In this document: positions 37,375 to 42,098 of the stretch, piece after piece
Layout: every line of letters begins with the position of its first letter
Numbering within the stretch: position 1 is the stretch's first letter
From: Candidatus Gastranaerophilales bacterium
GTDB lineage: Bacteria > Cyanobacteriota > Vampirovibrionia > Gastranaerophilales > Gastranaerophilaceae
Assembly: GCA_947631645.1 (NCBI GenBank)
Contig: CANRMD010000013.1
Location: forward strand, 1 to 43,266
Direction of reading: 5' to 3'
DNA: 43,266 nucleotides
The notes under the pieces: model-generated
Database searches by the model: none
What the model was told of the DNA's origin: nothing
Seen by the model: the letters and a program-made list of their open reading frames with translations, nothing else
Translations under genes and position numbers: made by a program

Positions 37375-37851
37375 TTAGTCCATCTCCCATTCATACCAAT
37401 TTCCGATTTTAACAATTATATAAGATGAATCCGTTAGCTTATCGCATTTACTTTGATTTGAACAGTATTGAAAAAAATTAAAATTTGCATAACTTTTATA
37501 TTCATCATCGTTATTTGTTTTCGTCAATTCATCTTTTGATACATATAATATATAATTCTGGTTTCCGCTTTCGCTAACATATTTATAAAAAGGCATTTTA
37601 GTAACTTTAAATTTAAAATCATCTATGTTGTCAGGATAAATTCCGTTTTCTTTTTTATAATTTTCAAGATATAAAATAACCGCATCATATTCTTTTAAGT
37701 TTTTTAAATTAATATGGTTGCTGACGTAACTTATTATTCCGGAAACTGAAAACAACATTAATGTAGTAAAAATCGTTATTGATATAAATAAAAAAATAAT
37801 TATTACTAAATACATTAAAATTTTTAGTAATTTTATAAAAATTTTTTTCAT
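37375..37851 (-). CDS. Membrane-anchored protein of unknown function with pseudopilin-like segment
   Basis: 158 residues. One long hydrophobic N-terminal helix (about 10-42) and an extracytoplasmic domain. The segment AVILYLENYKKENGIYPDNIDDF resembles the region after the helix in GspG/pilin-like proteins (YKxxNGxYPxxLxxL), but there is no prepilin cleavage site. AAGG lies about 9 bases before the ATG. Expression is probably driven by the poly-G promoter at 37883-37917. Function unknown. Confidence 0.6.
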   Translation of the reverse strand: MKKIFIKLLKILMYLVIIIFLFISITIFTTLMLFSVSGIISYVSNHINLKNLKEYDAVILYLENYKKENGIYPDNIDDFKFKVTKMPFYKYVSESGNQNYILYVSKDELTKTNNDDEYKSYANFNFFQYCSNQSKCDKLTDSSYIIVKIGNWYEWEMD

Positions 37852-37882: not shown

Positions 37883-37917
37883 ATTATACCACTTCTACCC
37901 CCCCCCCCGAAGCAAAT
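37883..37917 (-). promoter_or_regulatory. Poly-G spacer promoter, candidate phase-variable switch (copy 1)
   Basis: Minus strand: TTGCTT (37915-37910), 21-base spacer with 11 consecutive G (37908-37898), extended -10 TGG-TATAAT (37891-37883). The start of transcription would fall near 37876, about 25 bases before the ATG at 37851 with a ribosome-binding site between. The element closely matches the one at 40523-40553. Confidence 0.6.
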
Positions 37918-38375: not shown

Positions 38376-38870
38376 ATGAACGAAAATAAATCTTTAAATG
38401 AACAGCAAGAACAAGTTATTCTAATTCCTGACCCAAGACAAATTATAATAACTCCTGCCTGTGCTAATCGAGCATACGGACTTTTTGATTCTGAAACAGG
38501 CACACAAGTTAGTGAGTTTAGAAAAGGTACTACAGGTAAAGTTGAATTTGACAACTTAGACCCAAACAAGCACTATGATGTTGGAGCTATTGAAGGTATG
38601 GGAGATGAAAAACCCCAATTCGCAATTGCATGGATTTCAGCAATGAAAGACACCACAGACGAAATATTAAAAAATTCAGGCAACTTGCCTGTTATATATC
38701 CGGCTACATATACAATAAAAGATAATGGCAGCAATTCCAACAACATTTTTGACTTGGTTGATGATAAAGGCGATAAGGTAGGAGAAGTTGCAAAATTAGC
38801 ACCAACCGGCGATAAACTGCAAATCAATTTTATATGCTCTTTCAAAATGAAAGACGACACAAAGGAATAA
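38376..38870 (+). CDS. FN3-like repeat protein of unknown function (one repeat)
   Basis: 164 residues, no signal peptide. Residues about 22-64 contain the module shared with the genes at 40872 and 41772: IIITPACANRAYGLFDSETG ... GTTGKVEFDNLDPNKHYDV. The pattern Y-x-L-(F/Y)-(N/D) ... G-x-V-x-F-x-x-(L)-(D/N)-P-x-x-x-Y is like the C-to-G strands of a fibronectin type III or related beta-sandwich. The C-terminal half looks like a second, more distant module. The leader AGAAAGGACATTTATTATG is nearly the same as before 40872 and 41772. Followed by a strong terminator. Confidence 0.65.
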   Translation: MNENKSLNEQQEQVILIPDPRQIIITPACANRAYGLFDSETGTQVSEFRKGTTGKVEFDNLDPNKHYDVGAIEGMGDEKPQFAIAWISAMKDTTDEILKNSGNLPVIYPATYTIKDNGSNSNNIFDLVDDKGDKVGEVAKLAPTGDKLQINFICSFKMKDDTKE

Positions 38871-38968: not shown

Positions 38969-39751
38969 TTATTTGATTATACTTCCGCCCCATTCAACGA
39001 GGGTTAAACCTTTTCTTTCAATCGGTTTCAGTGTTTGGGGCTGGGGCTTATCCTTTCTTTTTGCTTTTGATATTATTATTTGAACTCTGTTTATGCTCTC
39101 AGGTGTCGGCTCAACATAAAGAGGGTATAGGTTTTGCACTTCTTCATTTTGAAGAAAATATATTTTATATTTTTTCCAATTTTTATCAAGTGCCGTTTTA
39201 CTCCAGTAGCGGACAAACTCTTTTTTCTCCGCTTCATTGAATTTGAACTCATCTGCCTTAGCGTTTAAAAACGTTTCTATATCTTCTTTTTTAACAATAA
39301 AACCGTAATCTTTCTTTGGTATAGGCTTAGTTAACTCTATGCCGTCCCAGTAAATATAAGGGTATTGATTTTTTTCGCAAGCCTCTTTTGCATATTCAAA
39401 ACCAAAGGTATCAGGCAGTTTTGAGCATTTTGTATATTTAGGCTGTAAATCTTTAATTGTGCCGTTAGGTTCTGTTTGAACCCTCCAGTCCTTTTTATAT
39501 TTGGGGATTGTAATATCATATTTTATTGTTTTATCAAGTTTTATGCTGACTTGCGTCGGCTTTTCGCTATAAAGGTATATTGCGGGCTTATGATTCATTG
39601 TTGGAACAGACATAATAATGACGATAGCAGATAAGATTAAAAAACTTAAAATGCCCGTTAAAAAAGTCATAAGGTTTTTTCTGTAATTAGTGACTTCTTC
39701 TTCCGTCGGAGTTAAATTTATTTCATTTTCATTTATATTATCTTCTGTCAT
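38969..39751 (-). CDS. Membrane-anchored protein of the KPxIYLYP...VEWGG family
   Basis: 260 residues: cytoplasmic acidic N-terminus, one membrane helix (about 26-50), then an extracytoplasmic domain opening with HKPAIYLYSEKPTQVSIKLD and closing with RKGLTLVEWGG. Between them are the spaced motifs YPYIYWDG, YGFIVKKEDIETFLN and EKKEFVRYWSKTALDKN. I recognise this as a widespread uncharacterised bacterial family (KPVIYLYP ... FTVVEWGG) whose function is unknown. Its start overlaps the upstream gene by 14 bases, so it is controlled by the poly-G promoter at 40523-40553. Confidence 0.75.
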   Translation of the reverse strand: MTEDNINENEINLTPTEEEVTNYRKNLMTFLTGILSFLILSAIVIIMSVPTMNHKPAIYLYSEKPTQVSIKLDKTIKYDITIPKYKKDWRVQTEPNGTIKDLQPKYTKCSKLPDTFGFEYAKEACEKNQYPYIYWDGIELTKPIPKKDYGFIVKKEDIETFLNAKADEFKFNEAEKKEFVRYWSKTALDKNWKKYKIYFLQNEEVQNLYPLYVEPTPESINRVQIIISKAKRKDKPQPQTLKPIERKGLTLVEWGGSIIK

Positions 39752-40493
39752 ATATTGCGTCCTTATATTTATTTGGCGGAATTACTTTATTATTAACTCC
39801 GTCAACCACTAATGTAATTCTGTCAACATTACGAGGTTTTTCGGGATTATAATATTCGTTGGGTTCTCTAAAACCGTTTACATCCACATCAATAAGACAG
39901 CTTGAATTTTCATGGTTTTCCAAATCAACCTTATTACACCCCTGCTCATATTTTGATACTATATAAGCTATTCCTCTGGCATCAACAACAAACGGTTTAT
40001 CTTTATATTCGGTTAATTTATATTTTTTAATTTCACCCTTTTTAAACGTCTTATATTCATACTTATCGGATTTAATATTATAAACATCCTCAACATGCAT
40101 TCTCGAGATTATCATATTTGCAAATTCATTTGCGTTTTGAAAATCTTTAACTTGTTTACTCTCAACTTTATTTTCAAGCTCAAGTACTTGGTTTAAATTA
40201 CTCAATGCAATTATACGGTATCTTCTATATTCTATTGCGCATCCTTGTGAATTAGATATTCCATAAATAAATAAAGAAATTAAGTAAATTATAAGAAGAT
40301 TTAACAAGAATAAAATTACTATAATAAGCAGTTTTAAACATTCTTTCAGCTTAAAGGGAAACTTGGGAAAAAGTGCATATTTAAAACATTTTCTGTTTTC
40401 TATCAGATATTTTAAAGATTTAAAGCCCTTTTTTATTAAAATTACAAGGAGTATAAATAATATCAGATATATCAAGTATATTATAGAATCCAT
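39738..40493 (-). CDS. Two-helix membrane protein with a pilin-like C-terminal domain
   Basis: 251 residues. Hydrophobic helices at about 3-21 and 52-78 flank a Lys-rich loop. The extracytoplasmic part ends with KPFVVDARGIAYIVSKYEQGC and SCLIDVDVNGFREPNEYYN-EKPRNVDRITLVVDG. This runs in the same order and spacing as TTQDGMIFCVTNY and LWIDVNGLKKPN-RPKDIYQAMIYSQ in the pilin at 9648-10271, so a related globular domain is likely, here on a different anchor and without a prepilin leader. AAAGG precedes the ATG. First gene of a pair with the 38969 gene. Confidence 0.65.
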   Translation of the reverse strand: MDSIIYLIYLILFILLVILIKKGFKSLKYLIENRKCFKYALFPKFPFKLKECLKLLIIVILFLLNLLIIYLISLFIYGISNSQGCAIEYRRYRIIALSNLNQVLELENKVESKQVKDFQNANEFANMIISRMHVEDVYNIKSDKYEYKTFKKGEIKKYKLTEYKDKPFVVDARGIAYIVSKYEQGCNKVDLENHENSSCLIDVDVNGFREPNEYYNPEKPRNVDRITLVVDGVNNKVIPPNKYKDAIYDRR

Positions 40494-40522: not shown

Positions 40523-40553
40523 ATTATACCACTCCTCCCCCCCCCCGTTGCAA
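40523..40553 (-). promoter_or_regulatory. Poly-G spacer promoter, candidate phase-variable switch (copy 2)
   Basis: Minus strand: TTGCAA (40553-40548), 19-base spacer with 10 consecutive G (40546-40537), extended -10 TGG-TATAAT (40531-40523). Predicted start near 40516, 23 bases before the ATG at 40493, with AAAGG between. It shares ATTTGC, the G-run, AGTGGTATAAT and a downstream TTTCGG with the copy at 37883-37917. Confidence 0.62.
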
Positions 40554-40871
40554 ATACTGAAAAAAACATAAATGTAACAAATTTTTAACAAGCACGTTTA
40601 GAATTTTAAAAAAACGGGAATAATATTAATAAGGCAAGTTATGGACATTTGCCGATAAATAATTAATAACAAACATAATATAAATACGAATATAATATAT
40701 AAATTTTATAAAAAAACTAAGAATATTTTACGAAACTGCATAAAAATTGCAGTGTAGATATTTTTGCCCCCAAAAAATGCGGTTAAAATCAATTTTTTTA
40801 ACCACAATACAGTTACGACGCCACAAAAGACGCCAATATTATGGTGCAAAAAAACAGAAAGGACTTTTATT
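40554..40871. other. Intergenic region between divergent accessory genes
   Basis: No gene seen. It holds small dyads: ACTGCA/TGCAGT (40735-40740, 40748-40753) and GGTTAAAA/TTTTAACC (about 40783-40805), plus a repeated GACGCC around 40818-40835. These are upstream of the plus-strand 40872 gene and may be its regulatory leader. No consensus promoter for that gene could be picked with confidence. Confidence 0.4.
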
Positions 40872-41747
40872 ATGGAAAATGTAAAAATGTCAAATATCAA
40901 TTACTATGATTCATCTTTCGTGAATGCTGAAGATGTTATGCTCAGCGAAGACAAAACCGTTATTACAATATTAAATACCAGCGAATTTTACAACTACACT
41001 CTATTTAATTCTAAAACAGGCATGCAAACGGAAAATTGGATGAGCGGTTCAAAAGGTACTGTGGTATTCTCGGGTTTAGATCCGAAAATAGAATATGCCG
41101 TAAGGGTTCAAAGCCGTGAAGATATTCTGCCTATGCCGGTTGTTAAACCTGAAATCATTATCAACCCTACAATTCCCGTATTGGATGCGGATATTATCAT
41201 ACCTGCAAAAAAACCGACTTTTAATCCGCAAAACGGCTGCGGAATGATTTCTATTAAAGCTGACTCTAATTACGGTTATGCAATTTTGAATGACAAAAAT
41301 ATGCCGTTAACTGATAAACAGCTTAAAGAATGGGGCATAAAAGTAACCAATAGCAAAGGGTTTTTAGTACCAAAAACGGATGACGGTTATTTCTTCACTA
41401 CAAATACAATCATTAATTTTGAAGTACCCGCAGGCGGAGAATATAAAATGGGCGGTAAGAATTTATCCAAAAAATACACATTTATAAACGGCCCTACATT
41501 TATTACTCCCGGAGTTTATTACAATGCTTGGTACGGCTATGTTCCGCCATATTTTATAACTCAAAAAGGCAGTTACAATTTAATTATCATTCCTGCATGC
41601 AGATATTCAAATTACTCATTATACAATAAAGCAGGTCAGCATATATTAACACAAACCGATAAAGATTTAGATAGGGTTGTCACTTTTAAACATGTAAATC
41701 CATCTGACAGCGTTATTGTCGGAAGCCCTATCCCACTAAAAGAATAG
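40872..41747 (+). CDS. FN3-like repeat protein of unknown function (three modules)
   Basis: 291 residues, no signal peptide. Module 1 is residues 21-80 (TVITILNTSEFYNYTLFNS ... GTVVFSGLDPKIEYAVRVQ). Module 2 is about 122-190, degenerate (MISIKADSNYGYAILND ... IINFEVPAGGEY). Module 3 is about 233-285 (NLIIIPACRYSNYSLYNKAG ... VVTFKHVNPSDSVIVG). A Pro-rich linker at 87-118 separates 1 and 2. The start is ATG 40872, chosen because ACAGAAAGGACTTTTATTATG matches the leaders of the sister genes; the longer in-frame form has no ribosome-binding site. Function unknown. Confidence 0.65.
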   Translation: MENVKMSNINYYDSSFVNAEDVMLSEDKTVITILNTSEFYNYTLFNSKTGMQTENWMSGSKGTVVFSGLDPKIEYAVRVQSREDILPMPVVKPEIIINPTIPVLDADIIIPAKKPTFNPQNGCGMISIKADSNYGYAILNDKNMPLTDKQLKEWGIKVTNSKGFLVPKTDDGYFFTTNTIINFEVPAGGEYKMGGKNLSKKYTFINGPTFITPGVYYNAWYGYVPPYFITQKGSYNLIIIPACRYSNYSLYNKAGQHILTQTDKDLDRVVTFKHVNPSDSVIVGSPIPLKE

Positions 41748-41771
41748 TATTAAACAGAAAGGAGACTTATT

Positions 41772-42098
41772 ATGAACAATAATAATTCAAAAAATAATAA
41801 TATATTTGATACTTCGTTTGTTAAGCCTGAAGACGTATTCGTAAGCGATGACAGAACGCAAATTTCAATAATTGAAACTACATCAATGCATGAATACTGT
41901 TTGTACAATGCGGAAACTACAAAACAGGCAACCCCTTGGGTTAACGGAAAAGAAGGTCACGTTACATTTTCGGACTTAGATCCCGATAAAAGATATTCAA
42001 TCAGGGTAAGACTTGCAAAAAAGGATTCAAAACCCGAAATAATCGGAATTGATACTTTACCTTTGGTTGATGATGATAAAAATAAAAAAGACAGTTAA
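41772..42098 (+). CDS. FN3-like repeat protein of unknown function (one module)
   Basis: 108 residues. After an Asn-rich start, DTSFVKPEDVFVSDDRTQIS and YCLYNAETT ... EGHVTFSDLDPDKRYSIRVR match module 1 of the 40872 protein closely (DSSFVNAEDVMLSEDKTVIT, YTLFNSKTG, GTVVFSGLDPKIEYAVRV). It looks like a recent tandem duplicate cut down to one module. ACAGAAAGGAG leader; 24 bases after the 40872 gene, same operon. Acidic/Lys tail. Confidence 0.65.
   Translation: MNNNNSKNNNIFDTSFVKPEDVFVSDDRTQISIIETTSMHEYCLYNAETTKQATPWVNGKEGHVTFSDLDPDKRYSIRVRLAKKDSKPEIIGIDTLPLVDDDKNKKDS

Follow-up and report, generated by a model that had tools for sequence, protein, structure and literature searches.

Background

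In Mycoplasma hyorhinis, each gene of the vlp lipoprotein family carries a poly-A tract in its promoter. The locus described here resembles that family in that a surface-protein gene has a homopolymer-bearing promoter of its own, but vlp differs in its poly-A tract, in belonging to another phylum and in forming a compact gene cluster. In Neisseria, the fetA promoter contains poly-C in its spacer and the porA promoter contains repeats (PMC5320596), and opc likewise undergoes homopolymer-spacer phase variation, according to a title cited in PMC5084427. The AT-rich gut bacteria Helicobacter canadensis and Campylobacter hold many tracts of G8 to G12 or longer in both coding regions and promoters, and the G8–11 tracts of H. 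canadensis vary among reads (PMC2823697). Bacteroides-type invertible promoters, named in PMC11868660, mediate stochastic surface-gene switching in gut commensals through inversion between inverted repeats.

The locus analyzed here belongs to a Candidatus Gastranaerophilales bacterium and lies within the window, that is, the whole 43,266-nt stretch of DNA under study, which is contig C13 of the draft genome G000 (1.87 Mb). As in porA and fetA, a homopolymeric G/C run is placed between the −35 and −10 elements of a promoter with an envelope target, and its length sets the spacing (PMC5320596). However, the Neisseria cases concern a few single genes, whereas here one stereotyped module with a preferred spacing of 19 nt precedes dozens of exchanged genes. 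The AT-rich gut setting and the abundance of coding and promoter tracts recall H. canadensis and Campylobacter, whose promoter tracts (five in H. canadensis) nevertheless stand singly and are not presented as repeats of a conserved promoter sequence (PMC2823697). Unlike the invertible promoters of the Bacteroides type, our locus is accompanied by ordinary AT-rich inverted repeats only.

Results

A G11 tract within a promoter spacer

The initial annotation had placed 11 G between a TTGCTT −35 and an extended TGG-TATAAT −10 on the minus strand, and had given the spacer as 21 nt. Both statements proved exact when the window sequence was read and the spacer recounted. The minus-strand layout of this promoter, hereafter copy 1, is TTGCTT-C-GGGGGGGGGGG (G11)-TAGAAGTGG-TATAAT, with the following elements:

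37910–37915, minus strand: −35-like TTGCTT, in which TTGC is fixed by the search pattern and the following two to three bases differ among copies
37909, minus strand: single C after TTGCTT
37898–37908, minus strand: G11 tract, within the 21-nt promoter spacer
37889–37897, minus strand: TAGAAGTGG, the 9-nt spacer tail, whose last TGG is the extended −10 (family consensus TAAAARTGG)
37883–37888, minus strand: −10 TATAAT

The end of the −10 lies 31 nt from an ATG at 37851 (minus strand), which has AAGG on its 5′ side, and the transcript is predicted to start at about 37876. G runs this long are not expected by chance in the AT-rich window, where 7 overlapping G8 matches (two tracts) were counted versus 0.21 expected, and none of 100 shuffles reached 7. 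Inverted repeats around copy 1 were limited to AT-rich, chance-like pairs, none of which convincingly bracketed the promoter; a hairpin or inverted-repeat switch was discarded for lack of a convincing structure.

The remaining features of interest in the window, including a second poly-G promoter (copy 2), are:

37375–37851, minus strand: copy 1 gene, 158 aa, one N-terminal membrane segment
38011–38238, plus strand: divergent gene for a 75-aa HTH_3 (XRE-type) regulator
38376–38870, plus strand: 164-aa gene between the poly-G genes, whose family numbers 16 copies across the islands examined
38969–39751, minus strand: 260-aa ORF, overlaps the copy 2 gene at its end
39738–40493, minus strand: copy 2 gene, 251-aa membrane protein
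40523–40553, minus strand: copy 2 promoter, TTGCAA-C-G10-AGGAGTGG-TATAAT, spacer 19
40764–42098, plus strand: two more members of the 164-aa protein's family, 327 and 108 aa (40764–41747 and 41772–42098), divergent from copy 2

The tail of copy 2 is one base shorter than that of copy 1, and for this reason its G10 tract results in a spacer of 19. The first 340–500 nt of the copy 2 gene are 96–98% identical to copies in G003, G035 and G040, with tracts of G9, G10 and G9, and the 260-aa ORF probably lies on the same transcript. The copy 1 protein has a probable extracytoplasmic domain; its identification as SUR7, Csy4/Cas6f or YccV was rejected, the Pfam/PADLOC matches being weak, below cut-offs or of marginal E-value. 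No close relative of the copy 1 gene was found elsewhere in the genus, and a paralogue within G000 (contig C37, L116) has its own poly-G promoter with G9 and a spacing of 19. The flank upstream of copy 1 is common to G007:C91 (82% across 293 nt), but the promoter there leads into a different gene. The 108–327-aa protein family, weakly fibronectin-III-like and without a firm Pfam match, is interspersed with poly-G genes both in the window and at L117–L120.

A genus-wide promoter family upstream of envelope-protein genes

Searching the pattern TTGCNNN-G6+-N2..18-TGGTATAA revealed 44 sites in 14 of the 41 genomes of one genus, with the family form TTGCNNN-G(8-11)-TAAAARTGG-TATAAT, while the reversed control pattern yielded no site in the same 41 genomes. 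The recurrence of the motif exceeds chance. None of the 51 other genera of the order whose genomes were sampled has it, and among 84,980 species representatives scanned, only rabbit-gut ('Lapin') Candidatus Gastranaerophilales MAGs and one odd contig matched. The latter (L083, CANQOR010000094.1, from Lapin-032), filed as 'uncultured Bacilli', bears two promoters plus family genes and is probably misbinned, because its genes and promoters match the poly-G family. A rabbit origin of G000 is presumed from this distribution. Viral carriage was rejected for want of any match in viral_contigs, and the promoters are not a trait of a single clade, since carriers are scattered on the mutS tree and at least six changes are forced. 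In other poly-G promoters, the TAAAA tail is kept and the −10 is preceded by TGA, TGC or TAG. Over all sites, the three bases after TTGC are TTC, CTT, AAC and 11 rarer forms. Arithmetic on the G9, G10 and G11 match counts gives 37 tracts of at least 9 G in G000 (16, 18 and 3).

At most sites, TATAA and ATG are separated by ~27–32 nt. An N-terminal hydrophobic segment was present in all 38 proximal downstream proteins, counted conservatively at sites close to a start codon, versus 26 of 66 island ORFs overall (at least 100 aa, cassette genes included). Kelch β-propeller models were matched by 20 of 35 downstream proteins, and others are lipoprotein-like or short membrane proteins. As judged from these features, the targets are envelope proteins, with surface exposure as a prediction. 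About 50 near-identical promoters make up this genus-wide family upstream of predicted surface-protein genes.

Spacing and the presumed working state

Spacing was scored at 49 distinct TTGC sites with at least 7 G in the fetched DNA, a set picked largely by TGG and TTGC, which biases the frequencies of both. The tracts comprise 8 (4 sites), 9 (26), 10 (16) or 11 G (3); both the 9-nt tail and TGG ahead of the −10 occur in 46 of the 49 sites, and the resulting spacing is 19 (27 sites), 20 (15), 21 (3), 18 (2), 17 (1) or 22 (1). Six tract-broken relatives, in which other bases interrupt the G run and which were recognized by TGG-TATAAT and family resemblance, are unable to switch easily. Five of them have a spacing of 19, and the one at 21 has a decayed reading frame behind it (ATGAGTATGTAG). 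The start codon is gone from one of the copies at 19; the remaining ones precede apparently open genes, for example at L128 (Kelch protein, 389 aa) and L119 (exo/endonuclease/phosphatase family).

These figures do not bear out the proposal of the initial annotation that ~4 G would have to be lost for a working spacer of 17, given the single site at 17, the 27 at 19 and the tract-broken copies at 19 before apparently intact genes. An ON state at 17 would leave almost all copies in the 14 species off, the broken ones permanently; we therefore favor 19 (G9 plus the usual 9-nt tail) as the most likely working spacing. The broken copies alone are statistically non-decisive here, as the parent distribution is already 55% at 19. 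The suggestion that the sequenced copy 1 is low owing to an over-long spacer probably holds in direction, with the reference at 19 and the excess at two G instead of four: copy 1 would be low or off at 21, and copy 2, at 19, probably on. Promoters usually have a spacing of 17, shorter than the 19 nt favored here, and as a −35 element TTGC is weak; an extended −10 with TGG might by itself be enough for a promoter. An A-form poly-G geometry that would make 19–20 bp act as 17 is not needed, as tract-broken copies are also at 19.

Tract-length variation and other contingency-type tracts

Comparing G-tract length among related genomes, a check that the initial annotation had put forward, uncovered G8 to G11 in an otherwise fixed frame and different lengths in near-identical copies. 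In G035 and G003, the same gene is 99% identical over 337 nt with no gap, behind the same TTGCCTT...TAAAAGTGG, and the tract is G10 in the former and G9 in the latter; these are different species, each represented by one genome. Tract length differs by one in several further pairs, on MAG consensus sequences that may themselves be off by one.

G000 also contains coding poly-C/G tracts. Three of these lie in ORFs that are long in only one of the three frames, and are candidate translational on/off switches:

L021 (contig C36): 312 aa at the present tract length
L023 (contig C50): 268 aa with one base fewer
L024 (contig C59): 390 aa with one base more

Three tracts near gene 3′ ends (L009) would alter C-termini upon a change in length, a type known in H. 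canadensis (PMC2823697). Loss of mismatch repair was rejected as a cause of slippage, since mutS, found in 40 of the 41 genomes, is present in G000.

We consider it highly probable, on this comparative basis, that the G11 tract is the slippage-driven, phase-variable spacer of a sigma-70-type promoter. Slipped-strand mispairing at replication would add or remove G's in the spacer, and the altered number would shift the −35/−10 distance and thereby turn transcription of the envelope protein up or down. With ~50 genes in related species, each with an independently drifting tract, populations would come to display many surface-protein combinations. The phase-variable promoter first proposed for copy 1 is supported by the ~50 recurrences, the lengths of 8–11, the envelope targets and the other contingency-type tracts, its 17-nt ON state being the part left unsupported.

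The same family could alternatively be a fixed promoter, in which the G tract serves as a stiff, A-form-like spacer or a regulator site and length differences reflect slow drift or assembly error. Lengths tight around 9–10 are what a fixed-size site would also yield, and MAG homopolymers are possibly wrong by one. However, lengths of 8, 9, 10 and 11 within a constant frame and changes amid 99% identical surroundings speak against this view, a pure run appears dispensable, since tract-broken copies precede apparently intact genes, and candidate coding on/off tracts occur in the same genome. We regard a fixed promoter as unlikely.

Exchange of promoter-plus-gene units

At some loci, the 400 bp upstream up to TTGC are 93–97% identical and different genes lie behind; at others, the gene is 91–99% identical from TTGC onward and the upstream DNA is unrelated. 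Promoter-plus-gene units have been reassorted between loci and species. Identity of these units is mostly 91–99%, with a few at 84–89%, between species whose mutS genes share 74–80% in most pairs and 89% in one; this difference, as measured against one core gene, is most simply read as transfer between species. Several shared units stop at the stop codon of the gene. The three bases after TTGC differ even where both flanks are >93% identical, as between copy 2 of the window and its counterpart in G040. REP-like hairpins (GTTGGGTTAGCGGAGCGTAACCCAAC and degenerate forms) occur just 3′ of the stop codons of several cassette genes (L046, L063, L074 and others).

An alternative raised by this pattern is a motif that serves mainly as a recombination joint: gene cassettes would be swapped at the conserved leader (~75 nt, counted from TTGC) or at some site inside that leader, with phase variation secondary or absent. 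Near-identical flanks ending at TTGC before unrelated genes, together with the converse arrangement, triplets after TTGC that match neither flank, and the common end of several units at a stop codon are all in keeping with such a joint. Nevertheless, no recombinase was recognized among the annotated neighboring genes, a common leader is enough for ordinary homologous recombination, and pure G tracts of shifting length at promoter spacing would be left unexplained, all of which makes a joint as the main function quite improbable. That the tracts are false poly-G from two-colour Illumina chemistry is barely conceivable: runs of 20–30 G in two congeners (G023:C108, G024:C55 and G024:C60), partly at contig ends, are probably artefacts of this kind, but they are distinct from the G8–11 tracts, which are internal to contigs and share their flanks across 14 genomes, drawn from several rabbit samples.

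Returning to phase-variable promoters that are also exchanged, homologous recombination would suffice to account for the reassortment, acting through the conserved leader and the interspersed copies of the 164-aa gene family. A dedicated mechanism acting at TTGC or the G tract, which would capture and exchange units as mobile cassettes each endowed with a random on/off dial, is a tentative idea that we hold to be rather doubtful. As to an integron-like cassette, with its attC-type site and tyrosine integrase, the annotated island genes included no integrase, and a short hairpin lies 3′ of some stop codons.

Discussion

Phase variation by poly-G/C spacers is already known, and what is new is the reuse of one module over dozens of exchanged envelope genes. 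A limited literature search returned no report tying Gastranaerophilales to phase variation or Melainabacteria to phase-variable loci. The G8 to G11 copies, together with the tract-broken ones, offer a natural series on spacer length versus promoter strength. If the slippage reading is true, Gastranaerophilales, uncultured gut relatives of cyanobacteria, would gain a form of bet-hedging akin to that of mucosal pathogens. The regulon behind it would comprise envelope proteins, β-propellers among them, that are individually tuned by slippage and pass between species living in one host.
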